A stretch of DNA of 46,789 nt from Robertkochia sediminum. Lineage in GTDB: Bacteria; Bacteroidota; Bacteroidia; Flavobacteriales; Flavobacteriaceae. The notes beneath the pieces were generated by a model. The model worked only from the letters and a program-made list of their open reading frames with translations, made no database searches and was not told the DNA's origin. The position numbers and the translations under genes are program-made. The stretch covers positions 1 to 46,789 of the forward strand of contig NZ_JADMKT010000075.1 of NCBI RefSeq assembly GCF_016786255.1, given 5' to 3'. Below, one piece after another: positions 12,854 to 27,008 of this stretch. Position 1 is the first letter of the stretch, and each line of letters opens with the position of its first letter.

Positions 12854-15800
12854 TTAAAATTTAGCTCTCAACCCGAAAGTGAAGGTTGTTAAAGGCGCAT
12901 ATAATCCTCTTCCTGAGTTACCAGACTCACTAGTAGTTGGGTTGAACCCTTCTCTGGCACCTTTAAAGAAGAGATTATCTCCAGAAATAAACACATTTAA
13001 TCCTTGCATTCCAAATTTTTCTGTCATGGAATCAGCAAAAGTATATCCTACAAGCAGGTTATTCAATGCGAGATAGTCTGTGCTGGTAATGAAACGCGTA
13101 GACTGAGAGTTAACGTTGGTGATCACACGGTCTGCGATTAATGGAACGTCGGTAATATCACCTGGCTCTCTCCATCTGTTTCTCACGTCTGTGTGACGGT
13201 TGGTAGCAGTAATACCACCATTGTTGTCGTGCATCAACTCAGCGTACTGAGCGTCGTAAGCATACCCTCCAAGAGAGTACGTAAACTGAGCCGCAACATT
13301 GAATCCATAGAAGCTAGAGCTCAGACGGAAGGCACCGAATACATCAGGGATCGCAGAACGATCTACGTATTTCTGAGTTGCAGCAGCATAAGACTTAGTC
13401 GTCTGGCTAGCGATATTTGCATCCGGATTGTCAACCAGGTAAGGAGTAAGCGATGAGATAGCAACATCTCCGTCGTCAAAGATTCCGTCACCGTTAACGT
13501 CATCAAAGTACTGATTCCACATCGGGTATCCATCTTCAGGATCAACTCCGGCGTACTCTCTCATGTAGAAGTCAAAGATAGAACTTCCCTCAGAATATCC
13601 ATAACGCCCTACGTTCTGGAATGCCGCAGGCTCTCCTGTTTCAGGATCGATAGGCATAGTTTTGATCTGGTTGTCGGCAACAAGACCGTTAACAGTAAGG
13701 TCTAAAGTGAAGTTCTCTGATCTTACTAAGTGACCGGTCAGGTCAAATTCAAGACCACTGTTCTGAAGTACCCCGTCGTTCACAGTAATGATCGCAACCC
13801 CTGTAGAAGGAGCAATTCTTCTTTCAAAGATCAGGTTATCAGTTTGTTTGTTAAAGTAGTCTATCGTACCATCAAGGAATCTTCCCAAAGAGAAGTCGGC
13901 ACCTACCTGCCACTGCTTAGCAGTTTCCCAAGTAAGATCAGGGTTAGCAAATGTAGAAGGAGCTACCGCGAACTCACCACCAAGGTTAGTTACTTCGAAA
14001 GTGTTAAGACCTGTATAGAATCCTACACCACCTTCATCACCGGTAATACCGTAAGAAGCTTTAAGCTTAAGGAAGGTAATAAGATCATTATTCGCAAGGA
14101 AATTCTCATTACTCATTACCCAAGCAGCACCAACAGATCCAAAGGTATCCCATTTGTTAGTAGCGAATCTTGACGATCCGTCACGACGAACAGTACCGGT
14201 AAGGAAATATTTGTCTGCGAAATCATAGTTCACCTGAGCGAAGTAAGACTCCAGTGTTCTTGTATTTCTGAATCCTGTAGGTTGCTGAAGGTTAACAATG
14301 TAGTTGTTAAGCTCTTTCCCACCAGGAATAATAGCTTTCGCTTTAAATTGCGTGTTGAAAGTCTGGTTGAACTCATTTGATTCGTGAGCTGCAAGAACCT
14401 CAACAGAGTGCTGTCCGAAATCTCTCTTATATCTCATTAACTGTAAGAAGTTGATGATGAAAGACTCAGTAGACTGACGGAAAAGGTCACCTTCGTTACC
14501 TACAGATACACCGTAGAACTGGTTTCCGATAGAACGGAAGATGTTGTTCGAGTACTGAGAACCGAAAGTAGACTCAAAAGTAAGTCCTTTAGCAAGGTTG
14601 ATCTTAGCGTTAAAGCTGGTTACAACTTCGTGACGATCGTTACCGTTGAAGTCGTAAAGCGCAGAAGCAATAGGGTTCAGGTTGTTCGAGTTAGGTCTCG
14701 CTCTGAATCCTGAAGCAGAACCATAGTCATACTGGAAACCTCCGAAGATCGGATCCGGCACTTTATCACCGTTGTCATCACGAAGGAATACAGGATAGAA
14801 TGGGTTCATTTTATCTGCAAATTCGAAAAGGTTCTCCGCACCGTCGGTCTGTCCGTTATTGATACTCTCTGAGTAGGTATAACCGATGTTAGCACCAACG
14901 TTGAACCAATCTTTAACCTGAGAGTTCAGGTTCAAACGAGTCGTATATCTCTGATACCCGGTGTTGATCGCAATACCGTTATCATCAAGATAACCAACAG
15001 AAAGGAAGTACTTAGTTCTGTCGCTTCCTCCACCCATACGAACGTTAGCTTCTGTTCTGTATGCCGTATCAAAGGCAGCATCTTCGTAGCTCATTGGAGT
15101 GTACTTTCTGGTAACTCCGTCTCTTACCATTCCTGTAGCAGGATCGATAAGCTCAGCTCCATTAGCCACATTCCACATGTTATATCCCGGAAGGTAGCTT
15201 GTGAAAAGTGCATCGTTAACAGTTCCTACAGGATCAGGATTTCCAGAAAGGATCTCTCTGTTTCTCTTCGCTTCCCAAACAAGTCCGATGGCCTCTTCCG
15301 GAGAAGTGATCACATCGTAACGTGGAAGCAACTGTACGTTAACCCCTGATTTTACATCAACCTCGATGTAATCCTCAGCAGCAGTACCATTCTTAGTCGT
15401 GATCAATACAACCCCGTTAGCACCACGAGAACCGTAGATAGCCGTTGCAGATGCATCCTTAAGAATAGTAGTACTCTTAATATCTGCAGGGTTGATCGCG
15501 TTCAAACTTCCTGAGTAAGGAACCCCGTCAATTACGTAAAGTGGATCTCTGTTACCGTTGATGGAACCGAAACCACGAATACGAATAGTAGAAGTTGTAC
15601 CAGGCTGACCTGAGGTGTTAATTACTGCTACACCAGCAGCCTCACCAGCAAGTGATTGCGATACGTTAGAGTAGTTTTTCAACTCAATGTCTTCAGCTTC
15701 GATAGTTGTTGCCGTACCGGTAAAGGACTTTTTAGTTGTAGTACCATAACCTACTACCACAACCTCATCCAGGGTTTGTGCGTCAACTGAAAGCTGAACA

Positions 15801-16075
15801 TTAACTACACCAGAAGCAGGAACTGCTACTTCTTGTGTTTGCATACCAATGTAAGATATAACAAGTACATCTCCTTCACTGGCCATGATGGAATAATTTC
15901 CATCAAAATCTGTTTGAGTACCACGCGCGGTACCCTGAACCAATACACTAGCTCCCGGCAAAGGAAGTCCGTCCTGGTCCACTACGGTACCAGTGACGTT
16001 TCTGTCCTGAGCAAACGAGAACTGCAGTGCGAACGCCATGATAAGCGTCAACATCCAAGTAAACTTTGATCTCAT
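12854..16075 (-). CDS. SusC/RagA-family TonB-dependent outer-membrane transporter (pair 2)
   Basis: A TonB-dependent SusC-type barrel of 1073 residues. It has a signal peptide (ending LQFSFAQ), a carboxypeptidase-regulatory-like domain (GTVVDQDGLPLPGASVLVQG to LVISYIGMQTQE), the TonB-box-like linker DEVVVVGYGTTTKKSFTG, a plug (TIRIRGFGSINGNRDPLYVI, LKDASATAIYGSRGANGVVL) and a barrel ending TFTFGLRAKF. It is the first gene of a two-gene operon with the SusD at 11333. It faces the rnhB gene across a 575-bp divergent gap, so its promoter lies in that gap. The substrate is unknown. Confidence 0.95.
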   Translation of the reverse strand: MRSKFTWMLTLIMAFALQFSFAQDRNVTGTVVDQDGLPLPGASVLVQGTARGTQTDFDGNYSIMASEGDVLVISYIGMQTQEVAVPASGVVNVQLSVDAQTLDEVVVVGYGTTTKKSFTGTATTIEAEDIELKNYSNVSQSLAGEAAGVAVINTSGQPGTTSTIRIRGFGSINGNRDPLYVIDGVPYSGSLNAINPADIKSTTILKDASATAIYGSRGANGVVLITTKNGTAAEDYIEVDVKSGVNVQLLPRYDVITSPEEAIGLVWEAKRNREILSGNPDPVGTVNDALFTSYLPGYNMWNVANGAELIDPATGMVRDGVTRKYTPMSYEDAAFDTAYRTEANVRMGGGSDRTKYFLSVGYLDDNGIAINTGYQRYTTRLNLNSQVKDWFNVGANIGYTYSESINNGQTDGAENLFEFADKMNPFYPVFLRDDNGDKVPDPIFGGFQYDYGSASGFRARPNSNNLNPIASALYDFNGNDRHEVVTSFNAKINLAKGLTFESTFGSQYSNNIFRSIGNQFYGVSVGNEGDLFRQSTESFIINFLQLMRYKRDFGQHSVEVLAAHESNEFNQTFNTQFKAKAIIPGGKELNNYIVNLQQPTGFRNTRTLESYFAQVNYDFADKYFLTGTVRRDGSSRFATNKWDTFGSVGAAWVMSNENFLANNDLITFLKLKASYGITGDEGGVGFYTGLNTFEVTNLGGEFAVAPSTFANPDLTWETAKQWQVGADFSLGRFLDGTIDYFNKQTDNLIFERRIAPSTGVAIITVNDGVLQNSGLEFDLTGHLVRSENFTLDLTVNGLVADNQIKTMPIDPETGEPAAFQNVGRYGYSEGSSIFDFYMREYAGVDPEDGYPMWNQYFDDVNGDGIFDDGDVAISSLTPYLVDNPDANIASQTTKSYAAATQKYVDRSAIPDVFGAFRLSSSFYGFNVAAQFTYSLGGYAYDAQYAELMHDNNGGITATNRHTDVRNRWREPGDITDVPLIADRVITNVNSQSTRFITSTDYLALNNLLVGYTFADSMTEKFGMQGLNVFISGDNLFFKGAREGFNPTTSESGNSGRGLYAPLTTFTFGLRAKF

Positions 16076-16650
16076 ATTTAAATTAATTTTGATTTAGCGT
16101 GGTGCTAATCTCTTCAATTATTAAGAAATATGCAACCCGAACGCCAATATATCGACCAAAAAACCCGAATTAGCCCGGTAAATTGAGGTTTATTCAATTT
16201 TTAAGTGAATTTTAAGATATTTTTAAATTATTATCAGAAAAACCGCTCATGTGTGAAAGAATTCTTAATTACTATTTTCGATATACTGGCTTTCAAACCG
16301 TTGAAACGCACGATAAGCCAGAAAAACACTCCCTCAACTGCGAAAAACCTGCTTTTCCCATCTAAGGGACATCCAATTTTATTTTCAAAAAATTACGAAT
16401 TCCTTTACATAGTTGCTTTTCACACTGCATTTCTCCCTCCGATCTACAGTGCCCCCCATTAAGAGTCCTTATATATATACCCGCCCTAAGATCACACCCT
16501 CCAACCATCCTGGAGCCGCTAAAAGAGCAGATACTCCAAGTACGGTCAAACCTAAACTATTAAGTTTTCCATAGTCCTAATATAATAACCCCCTGAAAGC
16601 ACATCATTTTTGGCGCATTTTCTTAATTTGCATACACTAACCCGTATCCT
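16076..16650. other. AT-rich divergent promoter region between SusC (pair 2) and rnhB
   Basis: This 575-bp gap separates divergent genes. Next to the SusC start it holds the leader shared by both SusC genes. On the rnhB side, a TTG (about 16611-16613) and TTAATTTG (16623-16630) sit at roughly promoter spacing upstream of the GTG start, as a one-mismatch version of TAnnTTTG. An 85-codon open frame on the plus strand (16205-16462) looks non-coding. I see no RNA gene. Confidence 0.45.
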
Positions 16651-20584: not shown

Positions 20585-20640
20585 CTCCCTTCCTTTCCAA
20601 GAAGGGGTGGCCACGTCTATGACGTGGTCGGGGTGGTTAC
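20585..20640 (-). repeat. Two-hairpin dispersed element, copy 3 (inverted)
   Basis: Read on the minus strand: AACCACCCCG, then the central stem CCACGT-catag-ACGTGG, then CCACCCC, then the terminal stem CCCTTCTT/AAGGAAGGG (one bulge). It has the same layout as the copies at 3708 and 35044 but with a different central stem sequence. Confidence 0.7.
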
Positions 20641-20667
20641 TCAGTTATCTGGAAGCTATAATCAAGA

Positions 20668-20756
20668 ATTCAAAATCCAAAATTTAAAATCCACAATCCA
20701 CTTCACCCCTTTACCTCTTTACTCCTTTACCTCTTTACTCCTTTACCTCTTTATCC
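20668..20756. repeat. Heptamer tract followed by CTTTACCT octamer array
   Basis: Five heptamers fitting ATYYAHA (20668-20702) are followed by seven octamers (20701-20756), mostly alternating CTTTACCT and CTTTACTC. The array ends 5 bp before the stop of the YqaE gene. The same order (GTGATGCR octamers, then heptamers, then CTTTAC octamers) occurs at 46312-46440. Confidence 0.8.
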
Positions 20757-20760
20757 TATT

Positions 20761-20919
20761 TTACCTATTCGGGTTATTCAAAATAACCAGTGCGGCGATC
20801 ACGCCGGGCACCCAGCCGCAAAGCCATAGCAGAAAAACAATAATGATCGAGCCACACCCCTTATCAAGAACAGCAAAGGGCGGACAAATAATAGATAAAA
20901 GGACTCTCCAAATACTCAT
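20761..20919 (-). CDS. YqaE/Pmp3-family small membrane protein
   Basis: A 52-residue membrane protein that begins MSIWRVLLSIICPPFAVLDK and has two hydrophobic segments (about 3-18 and 23-47) with the family signature ICPPFAVLDKGCG in between and LWLCGWVPGVIAALVIL in the second segment. This matches the YqaE/Pmp3 family of small plasma-membrane proteins, linked in yeast and plants to membrane potential and salt stress; the bacterial role is not settled. The gene is short and easily missed. It sits between lipB and lysS, divergent from lysS. The stop codon is directly next to the octamer array at 20701-20756. Confidence 0.9.
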   Translation of the reverse strand: MSIWRVLLSIICPPFAVLDKGCGSIIIVFLLWLCGWVPGVIAALVILNNPNR

Positions 20920-21051
20920 TTCAGTTCACATATTAATTCGGGTACCACATCATGGACCTTTTTTGGTGTTCAATATATAGGACGCCAAATTTCGGATTTG
21001 TTACACGTATAACAAACAAAATTCTTCCGTAGTCTTAAAAACAACTTGGCT

Positions 21052-23339: not shown

Positions 23340-23470
23340 AATTGTGACTTAGGGGTTTAACAAGTGAAAAATACGACCACAACAACTGTTAACCAACACT
23401 TTACCCTGGTTTGTTGTGAACAGTAAAAATACTGTGGTGAACTGCATCAGGAGCACTATCAAAAAAACAA

Positions 23471-23494
23471 AAAAGGCCCGTTCAGGGCCTTTTT
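23471..23494 (-). terminator. Terminator after the first acidic repeat-protein gene
   Basis: Stem AAAAGGCCC/GGGCCTTTT with a GTTCA loop, T-rich on both strands and thus usable in either direction. It lies about 95 bp past the stop at 23590. Similar hairpins follow the two sister genes. Confidence 0.85.
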
Positions 23495-23589
23495 ATCTGG
23501 TATACAGAAGCTTAAAGCAATAGTATTTCACCCAAGCTTCCTGAGCTAACAAAAAATTCTAAGTCCGTACGACCCGCTTTAGGGGCAGC

Positions 23590-24210
23590 TTAAAAGAGTA
23601 CTTCTACCATTTCGCTATGGCATTCGCAACTCCCGGCAATCAGGTCAAGATCTACGAACAGGATCTGATCAAGGTCCCCCAGGTGAGGATCAAACTTCTT
23701 TGGCAGATAGGCTATGGTGTCGAAACCAAGATCTATCGCTTCCTGCTCCTCTGCAAAAACAAGTGCGCTGTAATTTCCGATGTAGGCATCAAAGCCGGCA
23801 GGGAGGAATTCCCCGGTATCAAATCCCAGAACAACGGCTTCGGTCTCTGCCTTATAGTCTAATGCGTAAAGATCTTCAACATAAGGATCGAATCCCTTAG
23901 GAAGGTAATCGCTTACCGCAAATCCAAGCTCTACAAGCTCTGAACGATCCATTGCTTTAAAGTGCACACGATCGAGGTCTCCCACATGCGGATCAAAACG
24001 CTCCGGAAGGTAGCCTGCCGTATCAAAATCGAGAGCCACCTCTTCTTCCTGTTCAATAAAAACGATCTCGCTTAAAACCACTCTCGTATCCGGCGATTCC
24101 TGATACGTTTGGGTATCGATAGCTTGAAATTGGGTTAGACTCCCGGTTACCGTTTGAGCAGCCACATTCCATCCCAGAAGTAAACTGCCTGCCATGAATA
24201 ATAGACTCAT
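23590..24210 (-). CDS. Acidic secreted repeat protein A (206 residues), family not recognised
   Basis: The most diverged of three tandem paralogues, all exactly 206 residues. The start MSLLFMAGSLLLGWNVAAQT looks like a short Sec signal without basic residues. From about residue 46 there are four 33-residue units, each an acidic lead (SEIVFIEQEEEVA) plus a core such as LDFDTAGYLPERFDPHVGD, LGFAVSDYLPKGFDPYVED, LGFDTGEFLPAGFDAYIGN and LGFDTIAYLPKKFDPHLGD, then a partial fifth lead. It differs from its sisters in the tail, which has GSCECHSE instead of DYHFLKNF, and it lacks the Cys at the third core. Its own terminator follows. I infer an extracellular or surface role only from the signal and the acidity; no function is known to me. 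Confidence 0.7.
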   Translation of the reverse strand: MSLLFMAGSLLLGWNVAAQTVTGSLTQFQAIDTQTYQESPDTRVVLSEIVFIEQEEEVALDFDTAGYLPERFDPHVGDLDRVHFKAMDRSELVELGFAVSDYLPKGFDPYVEDLYALDYKAETEAVVLGFDTGEFLPAGFDAYIGNYSALVFAEEQEAIDLGFDTIAYLPKKFDPHLGDLDQILFVDLDLIAGSCECHSEMVEVLF

Positions 24211-24577
24211 TCTTTGACTATTTTATGATCAAGATTGGTTGATATGAAGATACAAATAAGACGCGTTGTAAAACAGTTTGTTACGCCTTACGAAAACGAT
24301 TTAGTAAATCTTCAACCGTTTAACCGGAACCTTAAAAAGAGTACTGCAACTTCCTTGAAAAGGATGCAAAATCGGCAAGATTTCAAGGAGAAATTCAACC
24401 TTTATGTAAGGCCATTTTATCACTTCAACCCTCCTACCCCTACTCAAACACAAAAAAAGACCCTCAACGGGTCTTTTTTGATACGGAGACAGACATATTA
24501 ACACTTAAAGAAATGTGCCTGTACTCGCTCTGCTAACAAAATTCAAAGTATAATAAACTACTTAACCACTCTTTGTA
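24211..24577. other. Gap between acidic repeat-protein genes A and B
   Basis: This 367-bp gap should hold the promoter of gene A. It shares TTGTTACG (24278-24285), 68 bp from the start, with the gaps above genes B and C. Near gene B is that gene's terminator (24453-24479). An 88-codon frame on the plus strand does not look coding. Confidence 0.5.
24453..24479 (-). terminator. Terminator after the second acidic repeat-protein gene
   Basis: Stem AAAAAAGACCC/GGGTCTTTTTT with a TCAAC loop, T-rich on both strands, about 100 bp past the stop at 24578. The spacing is the same as for its sister gene at 23590. Confidence 0.85.
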
Positions 24578-25198
24578 CTATGGTGCTGTCTCGGCAACTT
24601 CTTCGGCCGTTTTAAAGTTCTTAAGGAAGTGATAGTCCATTTCGATATAACGAATCTGATCCAGGTCGCCTACATGCGGGTCGAATTTCTCCGGAAGGTA
24701 GGTTGCAGTGTCAAAACCGAGCTCGATCGCTTCCTGAGCCTCCATATACGCCAGGTCATTATAATTCCCCAGGTGCGGACAAAAGCCATCCGGAAGGTAC
24801 TGCGCCGTATCAAACCCCAGTTCGATAACCTCACTTTCTTCCACATAAGCCAGGTCATTAAGGTCTCCTACATGCGGATCAAATCCTTCAGGAAGGTAAG
24901 CTTCGGTCTCAAATCCGAGCGCCACTTCCTCTCCTTCCTCCATATCCACATAGGCCATATTTTCAAGATTCCCTACATAAGGATCAAATCCTTCAGGCAG
25001 GTACGCTGAGGTATCAAAGTCAAGGATCACTTCGTCCTCGTTCTCGATAAACACGATCTGATCGAGTTGGGTGCGAGCATCTTCTGCCTCACAGGTGATC
25101 TCATTAAAAACAGGTTGCTGGTTTGTTGTATCGTTGGTCGTTTGGGTAGCTCCATTCCATCCTAGAAGTAAACTACCTGCTATAATTAAACTGTTCAT
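24578..25198 (-). CDS. Acidic secreted repeat protein B (206 residues), family not recognised
   Basis: A close paralogue of the next gene (25715-26335), with matching residues over most of the length. Short signal MNSLIIAGSLLLGWNGATQ, then an acidic linker, then four units from about residue 45. Cores are LDFDTSAYLPEGFDPYVGN, LGFETEAYLPEGFDPHVGD, LGFDTAQYLPDGFCPHLGN and LGFDTATYLPEKFDPHVGD, linked by acidic stretches such as LDQIVFIENEDEV and LAYVEESEV. It ends with the partial unit LDQIRYIEMDYHFLKNF. In the third core Cys140 replaces the usual Asp. With Cys36 in the linker this gives two cysteines, shared with the next gene, that could form a disulfide. The 90 bases upstream are almost the same as those of its sister. 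A terminator follows. Confidence 0.75.
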   Translation of the reverse strand: MNSLIIAGSLLLGWNGATQTTNDTTNQQPVFNEITCEAEDARTQLDQIVFIENEDEVILDFDTSAYLPEGFDPYVGNLENMAYVDMEEGEEVALGFETEAYLPEGFDPHVGDLNDLAYVEESEVIELGFDTAQYLPDGFCPHLGNYNDLAYMEAQEAIELGFDTATYLPEKFDPHVGDLDQIRYIEMDYHFLKNFKTAEEVAETAP

Positions 25199-25714
25199 TT
25201 TTTGATTATTAAATGGTTCGTGTTGATGATTGATTTACTATTAAGACTACCTACAAATCAAATTGTTACGCGCTTTCTGAAGATTTTAACAAATGCCTCC
25301 TGTTTTTACATCTCTTTTAACATTAATAGCATGTAACAGGGGTAATTCATCATGAATTAGACAGCCTTAGCATAACTCCTAAGTGCCATCAGGGCACTTA
25401 CCCGAACGACACTTCCGGAAGCCAAACAGGAGCATAACAAGATCTAAACCATGCCTTACCGCAACATCTAAATCAGGAATCTACGCGGAAATCTCTCCGG
25501 GGATTGTCAGGGCTCCCGGAAAACAATAGGACGATGATCCAGAAGCAAAGCATCTCTAATTGGGTAACAGCCTGCTTAAGACCATGGTCCTGCTGCAACC
25601 ATAAAAAAAGTCCACAACGGGACCTTATAAAAAGAGAACAGGCACTTAAACTGATGAGGAATAGTGCCTGTTTACGGTGCTGATAAGAATTTGATATTCA
25701 TATGCGTTTGTTGT
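25199..25714. other. Gap between acidic repeat-protein genes B and C
   Basis: This 516-bp stretch begins with about 95 bp (25199-25292) nearly identical to the region upstream of gene C, including TTGTTACG at 25263-25270. It also holds a hairpin AAGTGCC-atca-GGGCACTT (25381-25399) and the terminator of gene C (25637-25672, with a weaker hairpin at about 25608-25624). Two frames of 26 and 18 codons on the minus strand are too short to call. Confidence 0.5.
25637..25672 (-). terminator. Terminator after the third acidic repeat-protein gene
   Basis: A 10-bp perfect stem AACAGGCACT/AGTGCCTGTT with a 16-base loop, followed on the minus strand by CTCTTTTTAT. It lies 43 bp past the stop at 25715. 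A second, weaker hairpin with seven T lies at about 25608-25624. Confidence 0.75.
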
Positions 25715-26335
25715 TTATTGTACGATCTCTGCCAATACTTCTGATGCTTTAAAGTTTTTAAGGAAGTGGTAGTCCATTTCGATATAACGGATCTTATCCA
25801 GATCTCCTACGTGCGGATCGAATTTTTCAGGAAGCCAGGCTGCAGTGTCAAAACCAAGCTCGATCTCTTCTTCAGCTTCCACATAAGCAAGGTCGTTGTA
25901 GTTACCTAGGTGCGGACAAAAACCTTGAGGGAGGTACTGTGCCGTATCAAATCCTAATTCGATGATCTCTTCATTCTCTACATAGGCAATATCATTAAGA
26001 TCTCCTACATGAGGATCAAAGCCTTCAGGAAGGTACGCTGCGGTATCAAATCCGAGAACTACATCCTCTCCTTCTTCCATATCTACATAGGCGATATCTT
26101 CAAGATTCCCTACATAAGGATCAAATCCTTCAGGCAGGTACGCTGCGGTATCGAAGTCCAAAACTATGACTTCCTCGTTCTCGATAAATACGATCTGATC
26201 AAGGGTTGCTTTGGTGTCTTCAACCACACAGGCTGCTTCATTAAAAAAAGGTTGATGGTCTGTTGTGTCGTTTACCGTTTGGGCAGCTCCGTTCCATCCG
26301 AGAAGTAAACTGCCTGCTAAAATTAAACTGTTCAT
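25715..26335 (-). CDS. Acidic secreted repeat protein C (206 residues), family not recognised
   Basis: The most regular of the three paralogues. Signal-like start MNSLILAGSLLLGWNGAAQ with no basic residue. The repeats run 45-77, 78-112, 113-145 and 146-178, then a half unit 179-191 (LDKIRYIEMDYHF). The cores read LDFDTAAYLPEGFDPYVGN, LGFDTAAYLPEGFDPHVGD, LGFDTAQYLPQGFCPHLGN and LGFDTAAWLPEKFDPHVGD. Invariant positions are the F-D-T, the L-P and the F-x-P-x-x-G; the leads are rich in Glu. Cys36 and Cys140 match gene B. The gene is divergent from the Spy-like gene at 26526. Each unit looks like a short beta or solenoid module, but this is a guess. Confidence 0.75.
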   Translation of the reverse strand: MNSLILAGSLLLGWNGAAQTVNDTTDHQPFFNEAACVVEDTKATLDQIVFIENEEVIVLDFDTAAYLPEGFDPYVGNLEDIAYVDMEEGEDVVLGFDTAAYLPEGFDPHVGDLNDIAYVENEEIIELGFDTAQYLPQGFCPHLGNYNDLAYVEAEEEIELGFDTAAWLPEKFDPHVGDLDKIRYIEMDYHFLKNFKASEVLAEIVQ

Positions 26336-26525
26336 TTTTTGATTATTTACTGGTTCGTTTTGATGATTGATTCACTATTAAGACTATCTAAAAATCAATT
26401 TGTTACGTCTTTTTTGAAGATTTTAACATCTCTCCTGTTCTTTAACATGATTTTTAACAATCCCGGTCTTAAACCAATGCAAAGGTGACCCATCTAAATA
26501 AACAGAACCTTAATTAAACATTACG

Positions 26526-27008
26526 ATGATGAAGTATTTAGCAGCCGCATTGACATTCACAGGATGCATTGTCTTAACACAAGCACAAGCACAGACAGCG
26601 GAAAAGCACCACCAGGAGATCACGATGGCCCAACAGGCAGAGATCAGGAGTAAAACGCTCGCATTGCATCTTGACCTCAACAAAAAGCAACAGCAAATGA
26701 TCATGGAACTTGAAAAAGACATGTTCACCAAAAGAAAGGCTATAAAAGAGGAAGCCCGGGCGCAGCGGGAAGATAACCGCTCAACAAGGGAAGGACGAAA
26801 CCATCACAGGCCAAAACCCACCAGAAAGCATCACCTACCCCCGGAACTCCATATTAAGACGCTGGACCTGCAATTGGCCCATCAAGAGAAGATGAAGAAG
26901 ATCCTGAGCGAAGACCAGTACCGACAATGGATACACATGAAACACCGAAAACACAGATCGGCACACCGCAAGCACAGCAAACAGCACGCGAAACCGGGAA
27001 GGAGATAA
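26526..27008 (+). CDS. Periplasmic Spy/CpxP-like protein, strongly basic
   Basis: A 160-residue secreted protein. The signal peptide is MMKYLAAALTFTGCIVLTQA with cleavage near AQA-QT. The mature part is helical and contains LDLNKKQQQMIMELEKDMF and, near residue 135, ILSEDQYRQW, which resemble the LTxxQ repeats of the Spy/CpxP family of periplasmic chaperones and envelope-stress sensors. The middle is rich in Arg and the last 25 residues consist mostly of Lys, His and Arg (KHRKHRSAHRKHSKQHAKPG), unlike E. coli Spy. It faces the three acidic repeat proteins across a shared upstream gap and converges with hemL, sharing the hairpin at 27021-27047. The family call is by motif only. Confidence 0.6.
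   Translation: MMKYLAAALTFTGCIVLTQAQAQTAEKHHQEITMAQQAEIRSKTLALHLDLNKKQQQMIMELEKDMFTKRKAIKEEARAQREDNRSTREGRNHHRPKPTRKHHLPPELHIKTLDLQLAHQEKMKKILSEDQYRQWIHMKHRKHRSAHRKHSKQHAKPGRR

Follow-up and report, generated by a model that had tools for sequence, protein, structure and literature searches.

The DNA analysed here, a contig stretch of 46,789 nucleotides from Robertkochia sediminum (the window), carries on its minus strand three adjacent genes, A, B and C, each encoding an acidic protein of 206 residues with repeats of an F-[DE]-T...LP motif; we refer to these proteins and their relatives as the FDT family. Each gene is preceded by a promoter resembling those of extracytoplasmic function (ECF) sigma factors:

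23590..24210, minus strand: copy A, diverged 206-residue FDT-repeat protein (open reading frame, ORF; alignment)
24578..25198, minus strand: copy B, 206-residue FDT-repeat protein (ORF; alignment; ratio of nonsynonymous to synonymous substitution rates, dN/dS)
25715..26335, minus strand: copy C, 206-residue FDT-repeat protein (ORF; C-B and C-A alignments; family search; dN/dS)
24257..24285, minus strand: ECF-sigma-like promoter of copy A, 46 nucleotides ahead of the ATG (pattern search)
25242..25270, minus strand: ECF-sigma-like promoter of copy B, 43 nucleotides ahead of the ATG (pattern search)
26379..26407, minus strand: ECF-sigma-like promoter of copy C, CGTAACAA-N15-GTCTTA, 43 nucleotides ahead of the ATG (pattern search)

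FDT repeat genes and their promoters

Copy C shares 79% identity with B and 48% with A. In both C and B the motif occurs four times, starting at residues 61, 96, 129 and 162 (spacings of 35, 33 and 33), and both contain Cys 36 and Cys 140. Calculated without the first 19 residues, a cut that we set ourselves, the isoelectric point is approximately 4.05, with 45 (C), 46 (B) and 40 (A) acidic residues out of 187. An earlier note on this DNA had described the three adjacent ORFs, their four repeats, their acidity and the two cysteines of B and C, and re-analysis recovered the ORFs at the same coordinates and on the minus strand, the acidity, and the four motifs and two cysteines in B and C; the gene duplication it proposed is also supported. 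The note had further taken the equal length of the copies as a sign of constraint. This does not hold, because the A-C alignment is gapped once on each side and relatives vary from approximately 98 to 300 residues (with 1 to 5 motifs counted); the equal length of A, B and C appears to be partly an accident. As for secretion, the earlier claim is plausible, although neither B nor C carries a Lys or Arg ahead of the hydrophobic stretch.

Relatives of C (E<=1e-5) were found in 74 of 299 Flavobacteriaceae genomes, the three best matches in the genome collection being from Robertkochia. The 80 best of 239 confirmed places in this collection formed our locus sample and hold 109 FDT genes; homologues also occur in tandem there, as the earlier note had suggested checking, with two FDT genes adjacent in 29 of the 80 loci. 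For C and B dN/dS is 0.16, and three pairs of relatives gave 0.04, 0.19 and 0.16. Three comparisons with Robertkochia loci gave 0.10 to 0.15 at near-saturated synonymous sites, and between C and A these sites are saturated. These ratios place the FDT protein under purifying selection, and the value for C and B, together with the spread of relatives over 74 genomes, shows that FDT is a genuine gene family.

FDT is an unannotated protein family of Flavobacteriaceae, in agreement with the earlier view that it contains no described domain. Pfam gave no match at E<=10, NCBIfam matches lay far under the cut-offs (best 18.5 bits against 80), a search of the PDB returned nothing significant (best E 0.17 and 0.38), and PHROGs gave weak matches to one unnamed family (E 2e-5 and 3e-4). 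Plasmid and phage collections contained no relative at E 1e-5, a search of papers with a repeat peptide found none, and a literature search covering titles and the openings of abstracts returned nothing describing the protein family or the proposed RNA. A secreted, cation-binding solenoid under length constraint, as the earlier note envisaged, would suit the acidity and the regular repeats. An AlphaFold prediction from an alignment of 30 sequences gave a mean predicted local distance difference test score (pLDDT) of 57 and a predicted template modelling score (pTM) of 0.17, values of low confidence that are compatible with a solenoid and lend it no support, and together with the variable length of the relatives they speak against this reading, which we consider very improbable.

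The earlier note overlooked the ECF-type promoter of each copy and the conserved 3' untranslated region (3'UTR) of the family. The pattern CGTAACAA-N10..20-GTCTTA has three matches in the whole 3.5-Mb genome of the window, and these lie upstream of A, B and C. All three genes are preceded by GTAAC, 17 nucleotides and GTC, and three of the six GTAACA-N16-GTCTTA sites of the genome belong to them. Among 39 family genes, 23 (including the window's three) have GTAAC-N14..19-GTC within 300 nucleotides upstream, against 0.54 in shuffled sequences. A plain count over the 80 loci found the GTAAC..GTC promoter at 65 of 109 FDT genes; when misassigned starts were allowed for, with a pattern fixed after that first survey, it was found at 76 of the 80 genes longer than 145 residues and at none of the 29 shorter ones. 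Many of the shorter genes, second in tandem, have TAnnTTTG-like sites upstream (by eye), which resemble the housekeeping consensus reported for Flavobacterium psychrophilum (PMC9723704). Promoter control of the window's FDT genes is well supported.

Genes of a membrane type outside the FDT family also carry this kind of promoter. GTAACA-N16-GTCTTATA gave, by our own tally, 146 listed sites in 111 of the 299 genomes against 25 in control columns. Of these, 130 were fetched and 100 had a downstream ORF, the largest clusters being an ATP-binding cassette (ABC) ATPase (17), DUF456 (14), DUF4870 (12) and FDT (8). The window's own genome has one-mismatch sites ahead of a DUF4870-like (L153) and a DUF456-like (L158) gene, named by likeness to scanned members of those clusters. 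Two ECF sigma genes also carry such promoters, one of them in a DUF4252 operon:

G000:C68:48997-49503 (L162): gene for an ECF sigma factor, with a promoter of the same type; a small unnamed gene and then DUF4252 come next

The promoter of this gene reads GTAACA-N16-GTCTTC. Of 120 Flavobacteriaceae genomes, 108 contain a homologue of the gene (E<=1e-10), and GTAAC..GTC is kept before all 22 homologues with an ORF found among 30 fetched (0.22 in shuffles). The second ECF gene has GTAACA-N16-ATCTTT upstream, and 26 of 27 homologues (again from 30 fetched) have some GTAAC upstream. The GTC box would favour the DUF4252-operon sigma factor over the second as the candidate regulator.

A conserved core in the 3' untranslated region

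Downstream of the stop codon most family members carry a short conserved core, commonly TTTTTGAGTTAGTTAG, usually in the context CATTTTACAAATTTTTGAGTTAGTTAG. It lies within 130 nucleotides of the stop in 94 of the 109 FDT genes of the 80 loci (an earlier count of 91 of 109 used a different pattern and 700 nucleotides), and a GC-rich stem and a T run follow it in the sequences read by eye. In 67 genes selected for the presence of a core, the 12 nucleotides upstream of it have a mean identity of 69%, against 39% and 45% for two 12-nucleotide stretches at the end of the coding sequence. In the window the corresponding features are as follows:

23545..23560, minus strand: AGAATTTTTTGTTAGC after copy A, possibly a degenerate form of the 3'UTR core (judged by eye from its resemblance to that of the family)
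24532..24547, minus strand: TTTGAATTTTGTTAGC after copy B, possibly a degenerate form of the 3'UTR core (judged by eye from its resemblance to that of the family)
23470..23494, minus strand: terminator-like hairpin after copy A (3'UTR fold z -1.9)
24453..24479, minus strand: terminator-like hairpin after copy B (the folded stretch, z 0.07, cuts this hairpin)
25607..25626, minus strand: terminator-like hairpin after copy C (3'UTR fold z -3.2)

Terminator-like sites as such numbered three, against 3.4 expected in shuffles. Rfam at the gathering score found no family in the window or in six relatives' loci, and two matches in six further relatives' loci were both below threshold. A further hairpin was seen in Robertkochia-type 3'UTRs.

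The core also occurs apart from the FDT reading frame. At three loci (L222, L223 and L357) an ECF promoter, a core and a terminator are present, and none of the reading frames from promoter to core contains an FDT motif; at seven others the core lies 56 to 61 nucleotides from the promoter start, as a separate unit ahead of a short FDT gene. Under a stricter pattern, a core with a T run was found at 8 of the 130 fetched ECF sites, against 0.6 in shuffles. At one locus (L386, G148:C21) a small secreted-type gene other than FDT ends just ahead of the core, with an ECF-like site 470 nucleotides before the core.

A search with TTTTGARTTAGTYAG gave 78 matches in 48 of the 74 FDT genomes and 3 in control columns. 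Among the 70 matches fetched, 34 are copies of a single intergenic element that has a terminator-like stem and, in most cases, a doubled GAGTTAG, and that often adjoins a gene resembling a scanned DUF4197 one; ten lie antisense, 3 to 17 nucleotides ahead of a start codon; and the remainder are within genes or unexplained. One stand-alone core (L395, G077:C1) has GTAAC...TTCTTATAG approximately 40 nucleotides before it and is perhaps an ECF-driven copy with different spacing. A covariance model, R1, built from 33 stand-alone elements, with all its predicted pairs inside the terminator, detects FDT 3'UTRs outside its training set (E 2e-7 to 8e-5) and matches 74 of the 299 genomes. Strong matches, at a cut of E<=1e-8 that we chose, occur in 41 of the 74 FDT genomes and in 6 of the 225 others.

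These findings bear on the reading in which the protein alone matters: under ECF control, the acidic repeat protein would be exported and would protect or buffer the envelope, and the conserved 3'UTR would be no more than an efficient terminator region. Such a role accords with the dN/dS values given above, both for C and B and for the relatives, and with the degenerate or absent core of the window. It does not account for a core that precedes the terminator stem, exceeds the coding end in conservation and is found without the ORF and as a separate element, and we regard it as unlikely.

Complementarity to SusC-type leaders

Four of the ten antisense matches (L379, L394, L402 and L413) lie 9 or 10 nucleotides ahead of a gene for a SusC-type receptor, the counterpart of a gene in the window:

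12854..16075, minus strand: SusC-type TonB-dependent receptor, counterpart of the predicted target in relatives (Pfam)
16076-16100: leader of this receptor gene, ACGCTAAATCAAAATTAATTTAAAT

The leader at these four loci contains CTGACTAATTCAAAA, which matches the core variant TTTTGAATTAGTCAG exactly in reverse complement, and a 13-mer close to it is present in six other fetched SusC leaders. Pairing with a fixed core gave a mean of -13.4 kcal/mol for 22 SusC leaders (from 30 SusC loci fetched, 8 of which were dropped) against -6.0 kcal/mol for 1277 leaders (p 5e-12). A further 17 SusC leaders, at least three of them chosen partly for their nearness to the stand-alone element (-12.2, -6.3 and -9.7 kcal/mol), gave a mean of -11.3 kcal/mol (rank p 5e-7). 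Pairing at or below -11 kcal/mol, a cut picked after the values were known, was found for 10 of the 17 against 30 of 1251 leaders; the rank test is independent of this cut. Folding entire 3'UTRs as duplexes was not informative, since large loops were permitted, and short cores were used in its place. Complementarity of the core to susC start regions is thus apparent at the family level, and its preference for these leaders over others also speaks against a role for the protein alone. In 64 of 81 loci a metalloprotease gene (such as L062, 7039-9540, minus strand; DUF5117/DUF4953) stands in divergent orientation to FDT, and a few leaders of such genes are among the best background pairings. If the housekeeping box is placed at -12 to -5, a rule taken from PMC9723704, the pairing site would fall close to the 5' terminus of the SusC mRNA.

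Alternatively, core and SusC leader might share the DNA site of one transcription factor, so that the reverse match would not stem from RNA pairing. Both are short conserved DNA near transcript ends, and some core matches are intragenic or have no start or terminator nearby. This would leave unexplained why the core stands just ahead of a terminator-like stem in FDT 3'UTRs and in the stand-alone element, why its reverse complement stands just ahead of SusC start codons, and why variants that tolerate G-U pairing pair equally well; we consider a shared DNA site very improbable.

We favour, with a probability of approximately 0.58, the reading that ECF-driven FDT transcripts encode an exported protein and also supply a small RNA that represses SusC-type receptors. 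Under this proposal A, B and C would each be transcribed separately as members of an ECF-sigma regulon of the envelope-stress type, and each transcript would encode an acidic, probably exported FDT repeat protein. In most relatives examined the 3' end of the transcript would also carry a small regulatory RNA, released in stable form, and in some this RNA would be a short unit beside the FDT gene with the same type of promoter. It would consist of a U-rich core, for example UUUUUGAGUUAGUUAG, with a terminator hairpin after it, and the core would pair with the 5' leader of the SusC-type TonB-receptor mRNA just before the start codon, blocking translation, so that envelope stress would lead to less receptor synthesis. 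More tentatively, and a little short of an even chance, such a dual-output transcript, made from one ECF-sigma promoter, may be widespread in Flavobacteriaceae; besides the acidic repeat protein for export it would yield a 3'-end RNA that silences many SusC-type receptors by pairing with a shared leader. The RNA would then be the constant part and the ORF losable or movable, with a twin RNA of the same core standing alone, often beside a DUF4197 gene.

Several observations weigh against the dual-output proposal. In the window, A and B have TTTTGTTAGC (TTTTG-TTAGC) as their core, two bases short, and no core is visible by eye in the 3'UTR of C; a pattern search found TTTTGARTTAGTYAG absent from the window's genome, and R1 has no match in the window or, under strict filters, in that genome. 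The window SusC leader pairs weakly: among 34 leaders it ranks 7th for B, 12th for A and 14th for C. Across the family, 15 of the 109 FDT genes have no core even with a broad pattern, and 33 of the 74 FDT genomes have no strong R1 match. Purifying selection on the FDT protein implies that it is not a mere carrier of the RNA. At SusC leaders one reversed core also does slightly better than the background (p 0.005 for the 22 leaders and 0.004 for the 17; the second reversed core gave p 0.27 in both sets), so that leader composition contributes a small part of the complementarity; four of the eight dropped SusC leaders, read later, gave -5.9, -13.4, -14.6 and -18.0 kcal/mol; and the p values overstate the significance, as the genomes are related and the 80 loci were selected as the best among 239. 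With regard to the promoter, the other three GTAACA-N16-GTCTTA sites of the window's genome lie ahead of an ABC-transporter operon (L136), ahead of a long secreted-type ORF (L140) and within a gene (L141). Looser patterns are unenriched there, both GTAACA-N15..19-GTCT (20 against 32 in the control) and the one-mismatch promoter (25 against 25), and single-genome matches of that kind therefore weigh little. Two ECF genes have GTAACA promoters of equal spacing, and either may encode the responsible sigma factor. Similar GTTAGT stretches are present in two Robertkochia loci and in a genome of the same genus, and not in a third Robertkochia locus. The core of the window appears to have drifted from the family core, and RNA silencing in the window's own genome is uncertain, being proposed by analogy with the relatives.

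Neighbouring genes and comparison with known systems

Other features accompany the FDT genes in the window:

26526..27008, plus strand: divergent small protein, weakly DUF4890-like, next to copy C (Pfam E 2e-4, below cut-off)

The cluster of this protein lies near the FDT family in 62 of 81 loci. An ORF-like stretch at 20624-20980 on the plus strand, reading GLFKIT.AAITPGTQPQ, belongs to a cluster (cluster 10) found, itself or in a like form, in 38 of the 81; it could be a conserved intergenic or RNA element whose protein-like reading is due to chance, with no Rfam match in the window. Between 339 and 16075, near the FDT genes, Pfam identifies two SusC-type and two SusD-type proteins, a Porin_10 and an FG-GAP/UnbV_ASPIC protein.

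If the dual-output proposal is true, the Flavobacteriaceae, major marine degraders of polysaccharides, would gain a switch from sigma factor to small RNA that tunes SusC uptake under envelope stress, a counterpart of the enterobacterial sigma-E RNAs and of the FopS RNAs of gut Bacteroides. It would also give a regulatory context to a protein family that is abundant and lacks annotation, and the predicted base pairing is short and directly testable.

In Escherichia coli the envelope-stress factor sigma-E drives the small RNAs MicA, RybB and MicL against mRNAs of outer-membrane proteins. The likeness, an analogy by description, is that of an envelope-stress ECF sigma factor directing small RNAs to outer-membrane mRNAs; unlike those RNAs, the RNA of the FDT case would often be the 3' end of a coding transcript. 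The cpxP mRNA, with the small RNA CpxQ in its 3'UTR, is a stress transcript that yields both an envelope protein and a small RNA, and differs from the FDT case in regulator, protein and targets. The SM6 promoters of F. psychrophilum (PMC9723704) are likewise ECF-type; their -10 box is CGT, and one stands ahead of the conserved small RNA Rfp11. The arrangement of an ECF-type promoter before a conserved small RNA is shared, by description.

The FopS RNAs of Bacteroides thetaiotaomicron, described together with RbpB (PMC11697453), are the nearest known kind. They are short multicopy small RNAs, one of the 14 coming from a 3'UTR, that have canonical sigma-ABfr promoters and are induced by bile salts. 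Experiments show that they pair close to the start codon of a susC-type mRNA, which they repress. Multiple copies, a 3'UTR member and pairing at a susC start site are thus shared, the FDT side being predicted from sequence and likened by description. The FDT copies differ from FopS in their ECF-type promoters, in the repeat-protein ORF that precedes the predicted RNA and in their setting in the Flavobacteriaceae.

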